Positions 5,006 through 36,788 of a stretch of 64,000 bases of DNA are shown here, piece after piece. The first letter of the stretch is position 1. Each line of letters opens with the position of its first letter. The notes beneath the pieces are model-generated. The model worked only from the letters and a program-made list of their open reading frames with translations, did no database searches and was not told the origin of the DNA. A program made the position numbers and the translations under genes. Source of the DNA: Treponema primitia ZAS-2 (GTDB lineage: Bacteria > Spirochaetota > Spirochaetia > Treponematales > Breznakiellaceae); contig NC_015578.1 of NCBI RefSeq assembly GCF_000214375.1, forward strand, positions 2,294,001 to 2,358,000, in the 5' to 3' direction.

Positions 5006-5031
5006 CTGAATCTATTCGCATACTATACAAT

Positions 5032-5118
5032 CAGGAAAAATCAACCCGAAAAATGGGTATTTTTCAGGAAAAGTCAGCCCGAATAATGTGGAATTTTGAG
5101 GAAAAATCAGCCCATAAA
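5032..5118. repeat. 33-bp tandem repeat, about 2.6 copies, non-coding
   Basis: Units start at 5032, 5065 and 5098, exactly 33 bases apart. Each begins with a version of CAGGAAAAATCAGCCCGAA and then diverges. The array lies between the PPase stop and the MerR gene. A multiple of three suggests it could descend from coding sequence, but no convincing start or full frame is present. Confidence 0.8.
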
Positions 5119-15296: not shown

Positions 15297-15866
15297 ATGA
15301 AGAAAATTCTGGTAATCAATGGCAGCGGCAGAAAGGAGGGCAATGCGGCGGGCTTGGCCTCCCAGGCAATTGAATCAATGAAAAAGGCGGGAACCGAGGC
15401 GAAGCTGTTCAATTTAGGCGAAATGAACATCCATCCCTGTGTCGCCTGTAACGGCTGTAAAACAGGTACCGGTGGATGTGTCCAAAAGGATGAGCTCAGC
15501 AGCTTGATTGATGACATGCTGGACTGCGACGGCATCCTATTGACCTCCCCGATCTATTTCGGCCGGGCTACTGCCCAGGTGTATATCTGGGTCAACCGCC
15601 TCTATAGTTTAATGTCCTCTGCGGGGAGCCGCTGTGAAAAAAAGGAAAGCCGGAAACTCGGCGTAATTCTCACCTTTAACAGCGGCCCTGCGGATGTCTA
15701 TGCCAAGGAAGCGGATTACCTGGCCATGGGGGGGGTAAAAATGGTTGCCGGCATTACGGCGCACAACATTTTGCTAGCCGGTGGCTTAAGTGATAAGGAC
15801 GCGTATAAAAGCCACACCGAGTACCTTGATAAGGCGAAAGTCCTGGGAGAGTGGCTGGTTCAGTAA
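15297..15866 (+). CDS. NADPH-dependent FMN reductase / iron-sulfur flavoprotein-like
   Basis: Flavodoxin-fold redox protein of 189 residues. The FMN phosphate loop is ILVINGSGRKEGNAAGLA at the N terminus. A Cys cluster CVACNGCKTGTGGCVQKDEL (about 43-62) follows, the pattern of ISF-type flavoproteins that may hold a 4Fe-4S cluster. LTSPIYFGRATAQVYIWVNR is the second FMN-contact loop. The start at 15297 has an AGGAGA site; the frame extends upstream without a site. Physiological partner unknown. A second member of the family is at 45271-45912. Confidence 0.85.
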   Translation: MKKILVINGSGRKEGNAAGLASQAIESMKKAGTEAKLFNLGEMNIHPCVACNGCKTGTGGCVQKDELSSLIDDMLDCDGILLTSPIYFGRATAQVYIWVNRLYSLMSSAGSRCEKKESRKLGVILTFNSGPADVYAKEADYLAMGGVKMVAGITAHNILLAGGLSDKDAYKSHTEYLDKAKVLGEWLVQ

Positions 15867-15912: not shown

Positions 15913-15997
15913 TGCAAGAAACACTTGAATCCTTTACCATTGCCTCGGAACATCCAACGAAGTTCCCCGCGGACTATAAATCTCTGGAGGTATTATC

Positions 15998-16390
15998 ATG
16001 CAGGAAGTATATGATTTCTTGAAGAAATGCGGGACCTATTATCTGGCTACGGTGGAGGGAAATCAACCTCGGGTCCGCCCTTTTGGTACGGTCGATATTT
16101 TTGAAGGAAAGCTCTATATCCAGACGGGAAAGTCAAAACCCTGTTCACAACAGATTAAGGCTAATCCCAGAATCGAGATCTGCGCCTTTGGAGACGGAAA
16201 ATGGGTCCGTGTGCAGGCCCAGGCTATTGAAGATGACCGGCGGGAGGCAAAGCAGCATATGTTGGACGCCTACCCGACTTTGAAGGATCGGTACTCGGCG
16301 GATGATAATAATACCCAGGTACTGTACCTCAAGGATGCGGTGGCCACCATTTCCTCCTTTGCCGGAGAACCCCAGGTCATTAAATTCTAA
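15998..16390 (+). CDS. Pyridoxamine 5'-phosphate oxidase-like FMN-binding protein
   Basis: 130-residue split-barrel protein: EVYDFLKKCGTYYLATVEGNQPRVRPFGTVDIFEGKLYIQTGKSKPCSQQI. This is the typical N-terminal half of the PNPOx-like/NimC family, which bind FMN or F420 and reduce small molecules. GGAGG precedes the ATG. Its last 11 bases overlap the end of the convergent gene at 16380. Too short for true PdxH; substrate unknown. Confidence 0.82.
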   Translation: MQEVYDFLKKCGTYYLATVEGNQPRVRPFGTVDIFEGKLYIQTGKSKPCSQQIKANPRIEICAFGDGKWVRVQAQAIEDDRREAKQHMLDAYPTLKDRYSADDNNTQVLYLKDAVATISSFAGEPQVIKF

Positions 16391-19127: not shown

Positions 19128-19848
19128 GATCCTCCATATCCTGCCGTAAGGAATGTTGGATCCGGGTTTCCAGGGTTTTTATACCAATTTCATTCTTCTT
19201 CAGATCCTCCCATTCAGAGAGGGTCCGCTCTACCCGGGCATCCAGTTCAGCGATATGTTTCCGCATCGAAACGGTTTTATCCTTTATAAGATCCAGAAGC
19301 CGGGGTAGGGTTTTTTCGTCAATAGTTTCTGTGCTCCTGGAGACCTGGGTTATAGCCGCATCCAGATCGTCCATGCCCTTTATAAAATCCCCCATTGAGG
19401 CCTTTATGTCGGCGCTCAGTTCCTCCGCCTGGCTCAGCCGGGATTCCCGGACCAGGATCTGCCCAAAGAGTTCTCGGTTCCGCAGTACCGCCCTGATCCG
19501 GGCCAGGACTTCGGAAAAATTAAAGGGCTTGGTAATATAGTCGTCGATCCCCAGCTCAAAGCCTTCGACCTTATCTTTCACATCGTCCAGGGCGGAGAGC
19601 ATGATGATCGGTATTTCCTGGTATTTGGGGTCTCCCTTGAGGAGCCGGGTAAGCTCCCAACCGGACATCTTAGGCATAATATTGTCAAGGATAATAAGAT
19701 CCGGGTGAAACTTCTTCACCTGTTCCAGAGCTGCCTGACCGTCCTCAGCTTTTTCAACCGCAAAGCCCAGTTTGGAGAGTATTACTTCAAAGAATTCAAC
19801 ATTCAGAGGGTCATCATCGGCAATAAGTATTCGCTTTTTTGTATTCAT
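19111..19848 (-). CDS. Response regulator with C-terminal coiled coil
   Basis: 245 residues. A receiver domain (1-120) has the acidic pocket ADDDP, phosphoacceptor Asp in IILDNIMPKMSG, LSA and TKPFN. The rest is predicted helical and charged (about 125-245), without a DNA-binding or enzymatic domain. This suggests signalling by protein contact. Its ATG overlaps the lnt stop (TGATG). The bactofilin gene overlaps its 3' end, so a link with cell shape is possible but inferred. No cognate kinase is nearby. Confidence 0.88.
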   Translation of the reverse strand: MNTKKRILIADDDPLNVEFFEVILSKLGFAVEKAEDGQAALEQVKKFHPDLIILDNIMPKMSGWELTRLLKGDPKYQEIPIIMLSALDDVKDKVEGFELGIDDYITKPFNFSEVLARIRAVLRNRELFGQILVRESRLSQAEELSADIKASMGDFIKGMDDLDAAITQVSRSTETIDEKTLPRLLDLIKDKTVSMRKHIAELDARVERTLSEWEDLKKNEIGIKTLETRIQHSLRQDMEDHGKDR

Positions 19849-21476
19849 CAGTTCCTTCCTTTTCGCATTATACCCCGCAGAGCCCCCAGGATCAACATGA
19901 ATGCCGCCGCAAGGACAAAGAGTTTCCCCCAGATATCTCCCCAGAAGGTATAGGGGGTATTCGGGCTTATCACCGGAACTTCCACATTGATCCAGGCCTC
20001 GGTAAAGGGTTCCGCCATGGCCAGAACCTTGCCATAGGGATCAATGGCGCAGGTCTGGCCTGAAGCAGTGGACCGCACCATGGAGCGGCGGTTTTCCACC
20101 GCCCGGAACACCGCCATGGACAGGTGCTGCATCTGGGCGGGAACACTCTTGGACCATGCATCATTGCTGAGATTTACGATAAGCTCCGCCCCATTTCGAA
20201 CAAAATCCCGGGAAAGGTAGCCGAAAATATCCTCAAAACAGATGGGTGTCGAAAATTTAAGGCCCCGGCTTTCAAAGACTGTGGCCTCCTCACCCTCTTT
20301 CCAGAAGTGGGTATCCGCTTTTTCCAGCATATCGTATATCCAGGGAAGCTGCTTCTGATAGGGAAAGTGCTCAGTAAAGGGTACCAGGTGGAGTTTCCGG
20401 TATATCTGGTTTATGGTGTTCCCCTCAAAGAGCATTACCCCGTTGTAATCCACCCGTTCCAAAATTCCCTGGGCATTAAGCTCCCGACGGGCATCGTCAT
20501 TCCCGATCACATAGGGGACTTCCTGGGTCGCCAGAAAGTCCATCAGATCCCGTACCAGGAGAAAAGACTCAGGATCATCCCGGTACATGGTATGCCAAAA
20601 GATGCGGGGAACAAAGGCCGTCTCAGACCAGACCACCAGATCCGTTTCAGGGGCCGCATCCAGGGCTTCCAGAGAAAGCCGCCTCAGGGTGTCAAAGTTT
20701 TTCCGGTACTCCGTGATACCCCCCCGCCAGGGGTCGGTGTTATGCTGGATCAGGGCGACATGAGCCTTAGGTGCAGCGGAATAATCCACCGGGGACACAA
20801 AGCCGTAAACCAGGGTTGCTGTCAAGGCTATTACCCAGACCAAAGCGGCGGCCCATTCCTGGCTTAAAAAAGCCCGCAGAGGCCGGATAAAACCACCCCG
20901 GGGGGTCCCCAGGGGCTGCCGGTCCCTGAGAGCCCCAGCTATATAGACCGAGGGAAAGACAACCAGGGCGGAAACCCCCCAGACCCCGAAGATGGCGGCG
21001 ATCCGGATTACCGGCAACACTTGCCATTGGGAATAACCGGTTATTCCGTATGGATAACCCAGGAAACCCTGGGTACGGAGAAATTCATAGGCGATCCAAA
21101 GTATCCATTGGACTATATACCCCTTCCGGGGAAAGAGTATGGTTGCCAATTTTAACAGGGGAAAGAGTATGGCAAAATAAACCAGGTAGATGGAACCCAC
21201 GATGAGCCCCGCTAGGGGGTGGAACACACTGAGCCAGTAGTTGAACAGCCCATAGGCGGCATACCCGTAGAGGGCGCCAAAAAAGATCGAGGCCGGTAGG
21301 GATACCTGATAGATCACCCAAAACACCGGGACAAAGGCTATCCACCCTAAAAAGGAAAGACCGTTTATAGCTATAGGGTTAGGAAAGGATCCGGCAAAGA
21401 GCAGAGCCCCTAGGAGTATCAAAGCGATCTGAACCGGAAAACCCTTCCAGTTCCGGGCGCCCTTTAAGGAGCTCAT
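19848..21476 (-). CDS. lnt: Apolipoprotein N-acyltransferase
   Basis: Adds the third acyl chain to lipoproteins in the inner membrane. 542 residues: several membrane helices in the first 210 residues, then a nitrilase-like catalytic domain. The catalytic Glu is in LVVWSETAFVPR, the Lys is in YRKLHLVPFTE, and the Cys is in TPICFEDIFGY. A final membrane helix, FVLAAAFMLILGALRG, ends the protein. Its ATG overlaps the HU stop by four bases. Confidence 0.94.
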   Translation of the reverse strand: MSSLKGARNWKGFPVQIALILLGALLFAGSFPNPIAINGLSFLGWIAFVPVFWVIYQVSLPASIFFGALYGYAAYGLFNYWLSVFHPLAGLIVGSIYLVYFAILFPLLKLATILFPRKGYIVQWILWIAYEFLRTQGFLGYPYGITGYSQWQVLPVIRIAAIFGVWGVSALVVFPSVYIAGALRDRQPLGTPRGGFIRPLRAFLSQEWAAALVWVIALTATLVYGFVSPVDYSAAPKAHVALIQHNTDPWRGGITEYRKNFDTLRRLSLEALDAAPETDLVVWSETAFVPRIFWHTMYRDDPESFLLVRDLMDFLATQEVPYVIGNDDARRELNAQGILERVDYNGVMLFEGNTINQIYRKLHLVPFTEHFPYQKQLPWIYDMLEKADTHFWKEGEEATVFESRGLKFSTPICFEDIFGYLSRDFVRNGAELIVNLSNDAWSKSVPAQMQHLSMAVFRAVENRRSMVRSTASGQTCAIDPYGKVLAMAEPFTEAWINVEVPVISPNTPYTFWGDIWGKLFVLAAAFMLILGALRGIMRKGRN

Positions 21477-21883
21477 GTCGTATCGCCATCTCCGCGGGAA
21501 GCTTCGCTGGATGTTCCGCGGGAAGCTTCGCTGGACCTTCTGCGGGGGGCTTCGCTGGCAGGGGACTTTTCAGTGGCGCCTATATTCCAGACATCCTGTT
21601 TCAGTTCGCGACCAGGCCTGAAGGCGGCAATCCCGTGGGAATTAACCGAAACCTGTTCACCGGTCTTCGGATTCCTGGCTTTCTGCCGGCCCTTACGGAT
21701 ACGTACTTCAAAGGTTCCAAAACCACGCAACTCAATAACCATCTGTTGGATCAGAGAATCTTTAACTTCTTCTATAAAAAGATCCACCACGGTCCGTATT
21801 TCTTTACGGCTCATCCCGATCTTTTCATATACAGAATCAATAATATCAGCCTTAGTTACCTTCTGACCCGCTTTTCCCGCCAT
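21473..21883 (-). CDS. HU/IHF-type nucleoid protein with repetitive C-terminal tail
   Basis: DNA-bending protein of 136 residues. Residues 1-95 are a normal HU fold: TKADIIDSVYEKIGMSRKEI, FGTFEVRIRKGRQKARNPKTGE. The tail (about 105-136) is built on an 8-residue repeat, TSSEASRG-like, encoded by three 24-bp units at 21491-21562. HU proteins normally end near residue 90-100, so the tail is extra. The unit is related to a 24-bp repeat in the gene at 35829. GAGGGCGG precedes the ATG. Confidence 0.9.
   Translation of the reverse strand: MAGKAGQKVTKADIIDSVYEKIGMSRKEIRTVVDLFIEEVKDSLIQQMVIELRGFGTFEVRIRKGRQKARNPKTGEQVSVNSHGIAAFRPGRELKQDVWNIGATEKSPASEAPRRRSSEASRGTSSEASRGDGDTT
21491..21562. repeat. 24-bp tandem repeat, 3 units, inside the HU gene tail
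   Basis: Units at 21491, 21515 and 21539, core GCGGGAAGCTTCGCTGGA on the plus strand; the first two differ only in the last three bases. Same period and similar core as the array at 36498-36617. Confidence 0.9.
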
Positions 21884-33786: not shown

Positions 33787-35817
33787 ATGTCCGACATTTA
33801 CGTGCCCGGAGTAAAAAGCCGGTTTAATACCGATAAACTCATTGAAGACCTTATGCAGGTCGAGCGGGTTCCCAGAGACCGCGTAGAAAAGCACGTCGAT
33901 ACCCTTCAAACACAAAAAACATACTGGCAGGAAATGGGCCGGCGCATGAGTTCCCTCCGGGAGAGCGCCAGGCAGCTTTTTTCATTTCAAAACCCCTTTA
34001 ATGAACGGATAGTGGTTTCCCAGGACGATTCGGTTATTACCGCCACCGCCACCAGGGAAGCGGCGGAGCAGAAGCACAACTTTACGGTAAAACAGGTTGC
34101 ATCTGCGGATCGTTTTATATCCGCCCCTTTGCCGGAAAACTACAAAATAAACGGGGGAACCTACGATTTTTCCATAGGGGAGGATCGGATTTCCTTTAAC
34201 TTCCGGGGGGGCACCCTCCGGGAATTTTCGGAAGCCCTGAACCGCCGGGGCAAGGATAAGATCCAGTCCAGCCTTATCGCCGTGGAAACCGGGACCAGAT
34301 CCCTGCTCATCGAATCCCTGGTAACCGGGGAAAAAAACCGCCTGGGCTTTTCCGGGGATTCTGAAGCCCTGGCCCTGAACATAGGCATGGGTGAGCGGAC
34401 AAATGATTCCACCGTAGACTTTGTCCTCCGGGATGCCACGGTACAGTCCAGGCGGGCTGCGGAGGCTTCCCTGATCAAGGTGGCGGAAAATACCCTCAGT
34501 GTTGCCGCCGGTGGAAGGGCCATTATCACCCCTCCCACCACCATCCCCTCAAGCCCCAACCTGATTATAAGCTTTGAAACCCTTACTACCCTGCGGAGGG
34601 AGGGGGCCGTTGTGATACCTCAGCCACCTCCGGGGCCGGAGATACCTACTTCGGGGTCCGCCAGCTACGGCGGCATCACCGTGGAAAACGATCTTTCCGA
34701 AGTCAATATGCCCCCCTGGATTCCCCCGGAAGCTCCGGCCCGAATGGATGACCTGGGGGTACTGACCTTTACCTATACCGATGGGACATCCACCATACTT
34801 CCCCCTATTACTGATTCTACTGATTTCAAACCCTACCAGTTCCAACTACAGGATATCGCGGGGGATAAAACTATTGTCTCCCTGGAATTGGTGAACAACA
34901 ATACCCATCGGGATGTGTCAATCAAAAACATCCGCATCTACGATCCCAATGCATTGGGGGGATTCACCCCCCGCAGCCCGGTTTCTGCGGCGGCGGATGC
35001 CCTTATCACCATGGACGGGATCGAGATCAGGCGGCCCACCAATAATATTGACGATCTTATCCCGGGGGTTACCATAACTCCCCGGGCTGTTTCTGACCGG
35101 CCACTTACCCTGGGGGTACAGCCTGACCGGGAGGGGATCAAAGACAGCATTATCTCCATGGTGGGGAACTATAACCGCCTGTTAGCGGATATAAATGTAT
35201 TAACCAGAAATGACGAACGGATAATCCAGGAACTGAGCTACCTTACCCCTGAGGAACAGGAAGAGTACCGGAAGAAGCTGGGGGTATTCTCAGGGGATTC
35301 AACCCTGAGCCAGTTTAAAAATACCCTCCAGAGGGCAGCTTCTTCCCCCTACCCCACTTCGGACAGCCCAATCCTGCTTTCCCAGATTGGCATAGGCACG
35401 GACGTCCGCCGTTCCGGGGCTTCAGGGTATGACGCTTCCCGGCTGCGGGGCTACCTGGAAATAGACGAAAAAGCCCTGGACGCCGCCCTGGAAACCCGTA
35501 TACCCCAGATACGCCAGCTATTCGGATTTGACAGCGACGGGGATCTTCTGGTTGATTCCGGGCTTGCCCACACTATTGATACCCTTGCCAGGCCCTATGT
35601 GGAAACCGGGGGGATCATCAGCCTAAAAACCGGTACCATTGATTCCCGGGTGGACCAGGATCAGCGGCGGATGGAAACCCTGGACCGGCAGCTTGCCAGC
35701 AAAGAGTCGGCACTCAAGATGCAATACGGCCAGATGGAAGGGGCCTATAACCGTATGGAACGGATGTCCACTTCCCTGGATCAGTTCAGCCAGAGGGCGA
35801 ATAATAATAATAATTAG
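33787..35817 (+). CDS. fliD: Flagellar hook-associated protein 2 (filament cap)
   Basis: Caps the growing filament and helps flagellin assembly. 676 residues: N-terminal FliD domain (VPGVKSRFNTDKLIEDLMQVERVPRDRVEKHVDTL), central variable part, and C-terminal coiled-coil domain ending LKMQYGQMEGAYNRMERMSTSLDQFSQ. A Pro-rich linker (VIPQPPPGPEIPTSG, about 278-292) is longer than usual. Followed after 11 bases by the next flagellar-cluster gene. Confidence 0.94.
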   Translation: MSDIYVPGVKSRFNTDKLIEDLMQVERVPRDRVEKHVDTLQTQKTYWQEMGRRMSSLRESARQLFSFQNPFNERIVVSQDDSVITATATREAAEQKHNFTVKQVASADRFISAPLPENYKINGGTYDFSIGEDRISFNFRGGTLREFSEALNRRGKDKIQSSLIAVETGTRSLLIESLVTGEKNRLGFSGDSEALALNIGMGERTNDSTVDFVLRDATVQSRRAAEASLIKVAENTLSVAAGGRAIITPPTTIPSSPNLIISFETLTTLRREGAVVIPQPPPGPEIPTSGSASYGGITVENDLSEVNMPPWIPPEAPARMDDLGVLTFTYTDGTSTILPPITDSTDFKPYQFQLQDIAGDKTIVSLELVNNNTHRDVSIKNIRIYDPNALGGFTPRSPVSAAADALITMDGIEIRRPTNNIDDLIPGVTITPRAVSDRPLTLGVQPDREGIKDSIISMVGNYNRLLADINVLTRNDERIIQELSYLTPEEQEEYRKKLGVFSGDSTLSQFKNTLQRAASSPYPTSDSPILLSQIGIGTDVRRSGASGYDASRLRGYLEIDEKALDAALETRIPQIRQLFGFDSDGDLLVDSGLAHTIDTLARPYVETGGIISLKTGTIDSRVDQDQRRMETLDRQLASKESALKMQYGQMEGAYNRMERMSTSLDQFSQRANNNNN

Positions 35818-35828
35818 CAGGTAAGGGT

Positions 35829-36788
35829 ATGAAAATTACAATCGACGGAAAACCAGCGGATATTATCCTGGAAAAAGAAAAAACCTTAGGCGACCTTTTA
35901 GGCGGCATTGGGGAATGGCTTTCCGGGTCCAGGTATTCCCTGAGTGGCCTGCGGATAAACGGTGAAACCACCGGCGCGGCTTCTCTGGAAGCGGCCTTTG
36001 ACCGGGATCTGGGGGAGTTAGAAACCCTGGATATTGAAACCAGCAGCCTGCCCCAGCTCTTAGCCGAAGCTCTGCTGGACATTCAGAATAAAATTGCCGC
36101 CTATGAAAACGCTTCCTTTGAAGAACGGCGGAACATACAGCAAAATTGGGAAACCGGCCCCTCGGCGAGTTTTCTAGCGGAACAGATCCCGGATATCTAC
36201 GGGTATGCTGCCCAAACCTTCCGGGGTGAAGGCTTTGCCCCTGAATCTCTCTCTTCCCTGATTGAAGAACGGCTCCGGGAACTCCGGGACCCCGGGGCGG
36301 AGTTAGGCCGTATAGAGCAAGCGGTGGAGAGCATTGCCACGCGCCTTGAGGACCTGCCCCTGGATATTCAGACTGGAAAGGATGGGCGTGCCGCAGAAAC
36401 GGTGCAGCTTTTTTCGGGAATTACAGAAAAAATCTTTCGACTCCTCTCTTTCCTAAAACTGGAAGGCTTTGTTACCGATACTTTAGTCATAGATACTGCG
36501 CGGGAAACTCCGTTGCAAGTAGCGCGGGGAACTTCGTTGCAAGTAGCGCGGGGAACTTCGTTGCAAGTAGCGCGGGAAACTCCGTTGCAAGTAGCGCGGG
36601 AAACTCCGTTGCAAGTAGCGCCTTTCAGCGCTTTTATCGAAGATTTCAGCGCCGCCTTAAAGGAACTTTTGGCGGCCTATGAGGTAAAAGACGCGGTTTT
36701 AGTGGGAGATTTAGCGGAATATGAGGTGGCGCCCCGTTTGCGGGCCCTGTATTCGGCAATCAAAACTCCGGCTGCCGCCGCATCTTAA
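35829..36788 (+). CDS. Flagellar-cluster protein of unknown function with 8-residue repeats
   Basis: 319 residues, no recognised domain. The first 80 residues look like a small beta-grasp-like module (ITIDGKPADIILEKEKTLGDLL, LRINGETTG), the middle is helical and acidic, and residues about 224-263 are five copies of an 8-residue repeat (RETPLQVA / RGTSLQVA) encoded by a 24-bp tandem array. A gene in this place, between fliD and a PilZ gene, also occurs in other treponemes, so it is probably flagellar. The repeat is likely a late insertion. Confidence 0.8.
   Translation: MKITIDGKPADIILEKEKTLGDLLGGIGEWLSGSRYSLSGLRINGETTGAASLEAAFDRDLGELETLDIETSSLPQLLAEALLDIQNKIAAYENASFEERRNIQQNWETGPSASFLAEQIPDIYGYAAQTFRGEGFAPESLSSLIEERLRELRDPGAELGRIEQAVESIATRLEDLPLDIQTGKDGRAAETVQLFSGITEKIFRLLSFLKLEGFVTDTLVIDTARETPLQVARGTSLQVARGTSLQVARETPLQVARETPLQVAPFSAFIEDFSAALKELLAAYEVKDAVLVGDLAEYEVAPRLRALYSAIKTPAAAAS
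36498..36617. repeat. 24-bp tandem repeat, 5 exact-length units, inside a flagellar-cluster gene
   Basis: Units at 36498, 36522, 36546, 36570 and 36594. Units 1, 4, 5 are identical and units 2, 3 are identical; the two types differ at two positions. Core GCGCGGGAAACTCCGTTGCA. Same period and related core as 21491-21562. Confidence 0.95.

Follow-up and report, generated by a model that had tools for sequence, protein, structure and literature searches.

A 24-bp repeat in an HU gene of Treponema primitia belongs to a dispersed DNA family with the marks of a very short, probably mobile element

The window analysed here is a stretch of 64 kb of the chromosome of the gut spirochete Treponema primitia ZAS-2 (NC_015578.1, positions 2,294,001 to 2,358,000). 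It contains a gene for an HU-family DNA-binding protein, the stop codon of which shares bases with the start codon (ATG) of the following gene (19848-21476, minus strand), and a conserved gene that adjoins a flagellar gene (33787-35817). Both carry tandem repeats of 24 bp, and a third copy lies between genes:

15952-15971, plus strand: third copy, single, degenerate and intergenic, ATCCAACGAAGTTCCCCGCG, between genes ending at 15866 and starting at 15998
21473-21883, minus strand: HU-family DNA-binding protein gene, 136 aa (ORF list; Pfam PF00216, 9e-26)
21491-21562, minus strand: CAGC-GNA-GCT subfamily, three 24-bp units inserted in frame within the C-terminal tail of HU (TRF, genome BLAST)
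35829-36788, plus strand: conserved gene with the second array (proteins of relatives match the sequence flanking the array and lack the array itself)
36498-36617, element sense minus: five 24-bp units (TRF; DNA alignment with the same-genus genomes G148 and G146)

TRF delimits 24-bp arrays at 21491-21558 (2.8 copies) and at 36498-36621 (5.2 copies, 96% matches), which confirms the three units in the HU tail and the second array of the same period that had been described from the letters of the window. As also proposed, the two genes lie on opposite strands and the repeat is read differently in each, as SSEASRG in HU (minus) and as ARETPLQV/ARGTSLQV on the plus strand in the 35829 gene. When their consensus units are aligned in the best register, 16 of the 24 bases are identical, not about 17 as first claimed; the similarity is nonetheless significant, being equalled by 51 of 20,000 shuffles (p = 0.0026). 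Taken alone, this match gives modest support to a common origin. The HU array has a G-C stem form, the 36498 array an A-T stem form, and the copy at 15952-15971 is a hybrid of the A-T and G-C subfamilies. A different tandem repeat (33 bp, 2.5 copies, 84% matches) is found at 5031-5113.

The genome-wide search is decisive in showing that the HU-tail array and the 36498-36617 array belong to one dispersed family. CGCGGGAANCTNCGNTG has 45 exact matches in the genome, TTGCAACN{2,32}GTTYCCCGCG has 115 and TTGCAACGNAGTTYCCCGCG has 88, while the reversed-pattern controls gave 0 in each case. Confident copies collected from the genome stretches around pattern matches number about 145 over 4,059,867 bp (4.06 Mb); they form 110 arrays, of which 87 are single copies and 15 are pairs, the maximum being five in a row. 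The original prediction had named as its refutation a lack of further copies and a resemblance at chance level; with roughly 145 copies and the p value above, this refutation fails. These counts also bear on the idea that GC-rich DNA slipped locally and independently, giving rise to look-alike minisatellites. Some arrays are indeed near-perfect tandem copies, and because of this local expansion probably adds to the copy number within arrays. As the origin of the family, however, slippage is refuted by the 87 of 110 sites that hold a single copy of the same sequence with sharp boundaries, and by the empty controls; we give it practically no weight. No match to the 500 bp around the HU array was found in plasmids, and no exact 20-mer of the element in viral contigs.

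The unit can be written (C)-NACTTGCAAC-GNA-GTTYCCCGCGC-(A) and measures 24 bp. Its right boundary is conserved up to CA (A in 97%) and random beyond, while on the left a C (94%) is followed outward by a fading G, C and G (75, 73 and 56%) before the sequence becomes random; these limits follow the DNA sequence and not the codon phase. The core is AAC-GNA-GTT. Of 114 copies, 107 have the loop GNA, and the stem pair is A-T in 91, G-C in 20 and another in 3. The G-C copies form a compensatory subfamily, CAGC-GNA-GCT, the form found in HU. A longer form of 39 bp carries an extra inner hairpin of 15 bp, CCGAC-TTTA-GTCGG; there is none among the elements listed for relatives. In head-to-tail arrays the units are spaced by 24 and 39 bp, and mixed 24/39 arrays occur. 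With standard parameters the short unit folds no better than shuffled DNA (z = 0.07) and we dropped thermodynamic support for its hairpin, whereas the 39-bp form has some extra stability (z = -2.3). Since folding gives the short form no special stability, the putative hairpin AAC-GNA-GTT rests on the paired changes in the stem, and the A-T to G-C change could represent one or a few inherited events. At one locus (L045, about 1390-1650), GCGCAGCTTAGCTGCGC-like and CCAACCTTTGGTTGG hairpin sequences are interspersed among the elements, in what seems to be a stretch between genes.

Most arrays (76 of 110) lie inside a clearly dominant open reading frame of at least 200 aa, at positions evenly distributed along the host genes. 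All six frames are used (f1 24, r1 22, r2 10, f0 9, f2 7 and r0 4), and while these counts are biased by the choice of the open frame, Pfam independently identifies many of the host genes. They include genes for a penicillin-binding protein, DNA polymerase B, a NifH-like protein, UvrD, RelA/SpoT, DnaX, GatB, PrmC, CbiK, HAD, MatE and radical SAM proteins, among others. Both unit lengths are divisible by three, adding 8 or 13 aa per unit, and five of the six element frames are free of stops. A test of stop avoidance, based on the absence of CTAC in frame r0, was dropped as partly circular because the open frame had been picked. One host (L174:470-2875, minus strand) is an 802-aa frame that seems to be a fusion: residues 72-332 match NifH and residues 375-781 a nitrogenase component 1 type oxidoreductase, and an element lies in the second half.

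The presence of copies in all six frames of conserved genes supports the view that the spreading unit is DNA and not a protein motif. It also bears on the proposal that the HU repeat is a Ser/Glu/Arg tail selected for better DNA binding, the other array being a coincidence. The array does sit at the C-terminal tail, and HU proteins tolerate extensions there. Nevertheless, the same DNA is read in six frames of many unrelated genes, giving unrelated peptides, and it is absent from the HU proteins of relatives (none in the 29 HU tails read). These observations refute a selected protein feature as a general explanation and make it very improbable for HU itself, where the tail would instead be a tolerated by-product.

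Comparison with relatives further reveals empty sites. In G148, a genome of the same genus, the counterpart of the 35829 gene corresponds to residues 1-223 and 264-318, and the bases flanking the gap are adjacent there; the gene studied here is thus longer by exactly 120 bp (5 x 24). RelA/SpoT contains an array of 102 bp (39+24+39) that is missing both from Rel proteins of known structure and from G148, G147 and G145, the empty site in G148 being ...CGC^AAG.... It was in these two cases that the gain of exact unit multiples was examined at the DNA level against same-genus empty sites. From these comparisons we define the target as 5'-(GCG)C^A-3'; insertion there deletes no base and causes no duplication apart from the unit itself. 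The comparisons of GatB, HAD and MatE agree with in-frame insertion. The radical-SAM gene encodes 8 additional residues here, and in G177 it encodes 16 at a different site; these insertions are therefore separate events in two genera. Altogether, the comparisons show precise insertion of unit length at a fixed target, in either gene orientation and in several lineages. Orthologous ABC-transporter genes of two species (L153 and L220) contain insertions at nearly the same spot and in different frames, which are independent events at one tolerant site.

The claim of a DNA-level element spreading through coding regions is thus upheld by the copy number, the six frames, boundaries that do not follow codon phase, the empty sites and the differently placed insertions of two species in one gene, and the sister comparison adds that the 35829 array is a clean gap in same-genus relatives and that the HU repeat is confined, among the tails compared, to this species. 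The original prediction did not include the 39-bp form, nor did it mention the target site or the patchy occurrence among relatives. Among 200 genomes of the family, this one has 88 exact short copies, G177 has 61, G156 16, G155 5 and G159 4; the remaining 195, including the five of the same genus, have 0-2. In a scan of about 85,000 species the pattern occurs almost only in Treponema/spirochete MAGs, and a few further isolated matches are close to the chance number (about 4 by our own estimate). Most relatives with the element are catalogued as Treponema MAGs. In draft genomes, some elements are found no more than about 250 bases from a contig end (G177 C14, C32 and C52; G155 C81; G156 C36), which suggests that arrays break assemblies.

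From these patterns we consider it likely that the three units of the HU repeat are copies of a mobile DNA element that is very short and non-coding. The right end, with GCGC before A, would recreate its own target, so that later copies could insert beside earlier ones and build arrays; mixed 24/39 arrays would fit growth by repeated insertion helped by local duplication. A length divisible by three and five stop-free frames would allow genes to survive insertion. The element would probably transfer as a single strand folded into the AAC-GNA-GTT hairpin, which a trans-acting nuclease would cleave at C^A. Our best guess for this nuclease is an HUH/Y1-like enzyme, because an HUH-type nuclease would be consistent with insertion that duplicates no target and with CA as the cleavage site, as in the TnpA-REP of Marinomonas, which cleaves at CA or CT (PMC8266576). 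More tentatively, and with somewhat less than even confidence, we propose that the 24-bp sequence may be the complete mobile unit, inserted precisely at (GCG)C^A without duplication and rebuilding its target at the right end, and that its spread through essential genes may be due to a length and base order by which five of six frames stay open.

Three Y1_Tnp transposase genes are present in the genome (L090-L092; G000:C1 3456598, 2112139 and 787889). Each is ringed by its own palindromic motif (GGTGCCAGGCACC, GGTGACTGTCACC and GGGACAGAGCT), and they are separate RAYT-like systems within one genome. The Y1 loci of six relatives have no element within the fetched flanks, and G155, a draft genome that carries the element, has no Y1 match. 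Thus, no mobilising gene was found among the Y1 loci checked here and in relatives, and a resident RAYT as the mobiliser was rejected, the Y1_Tnp flanks containing other palindromes and not this element.

This result is in line with the main rival explanation, template switching during replication without a transposase. In this scheme a nascent strand that ends in GCGC would anneal to the GCGC of an existing array, be extended over one or more 24-bp units, and go back to its own template, again through GCGC. Whole-unit insertion without loss of the target would follow from such a process, and the outward fading of the left-flank GCGC match (94, 75, 73 and 56%) resembles variable microhomology. 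On the other hand, GCGC homology alone does not require the A that is conserved on the right in 97% of copies, and template switching leaves unexplained why one sequence alone spreads, or why the same sequence occurs in separate genera. We therefore regard it as rather unlikely, although it is a more serious competitor than the explanations discussed above, and prefer the mobile element.

Such an element would supply core bacterial proteins, among them those of replication, the stringent response and the nucleoid, with ready-made peptide inserts that are frame-neutral: HU, RelA/SpoT and UvrD carry small extra pieces here that sister species do not have. The empty sites in sister species make the cost and the mechanism of insertion directly testable, and the element poses the question of the minimum size of a mobile DNA unit. 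In practice, the inserts disturb protein alignments, and their position near several contig ends in MAGs suggests that they disturb assembly as well.

We found no description of this element in Treponema in the open-licence literature, and several known systems can be compared with it. CRISPR arrays differ in having spacers, as the units described here abut at 24 or 39 bp. PARCEL repeats are likewise tandem, palindrome-like DNA repeats within genes, but they keep one protein repeat of 25 aa (75 bp) in membrane proteins (PMC2996958), whereas our element is read in six frames with 8 or 13 aa per unit. By analogy, it resembles IS200/IS605 elements in its hairpin, in inserting on the 3' side of a short, fixed target that is not duplicated, here (GCG)C^A with an exact gain of n x 24/39 bp (35829 gene, RelA/SpoT), and in a right end that resembles the target; it differs from them by having a single hairpin, 24 bp in total and no transposase in or beside it.

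The likeness to REP, BIME and REPIN sequences mobilised by RAYTs is closer: these are hairpins of 20-40 bp in many copies, single or clustered and sometimes intragenic, and one TnpA-REP cuts at CA (PMC8266576), as in the C^A of the element. REPs are mainly extragenic, with a stem of 5-13 bp and a predominance of head-to-head pairs, intragenic copies being known in several species (PMC3733652). Most copies of our element, by contrast, lie in genes (76 of the 110 arrays, as above) and form head-to-tail arrays at 24/39 bp. The stem of the short form has 3 bp (AAC/GTT or AGC/GCT), to which the 39-bp form adds CCGAC/GTCGG. In place of the GTAG tag the reverse strand reads GTNG, with a variable third base and 7 nt away from the 3-bp stem, and no RAYT gene flanked by the element was found, either among the three resident Y1_Tnp genes or at the Y1 loci of the six relatives. 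Rickettsia palindromic elements (RPEs), including the CGTC-type RPE-4 and RPE-6, are short hairpin repeats found inserted in frame in conserved genes, e.g. uvrB and dnaE (PMC3733652). Our element does the same in RelA/SpoT, GatB, HAD, MatE, radical SAM and the 35829 gene. It differs from RPEs in sequence and phylum, in its tandem head-to-tail 24-bp units, and in having GCGC...GCGC(A) ends and a 3-bp stem where those have a CGTC end and a stem of 8-9 bp (PMC3733652). Since the defining tags, the stem lengths and an associated RAYT are missing, we consider the element a variant of the REP/RPE kind and not a member of it. Intragenic repeats of the REP/RPE type are its closest known counterparts, among which it stands as an unusually short, head-to-tail and length-modular variant.
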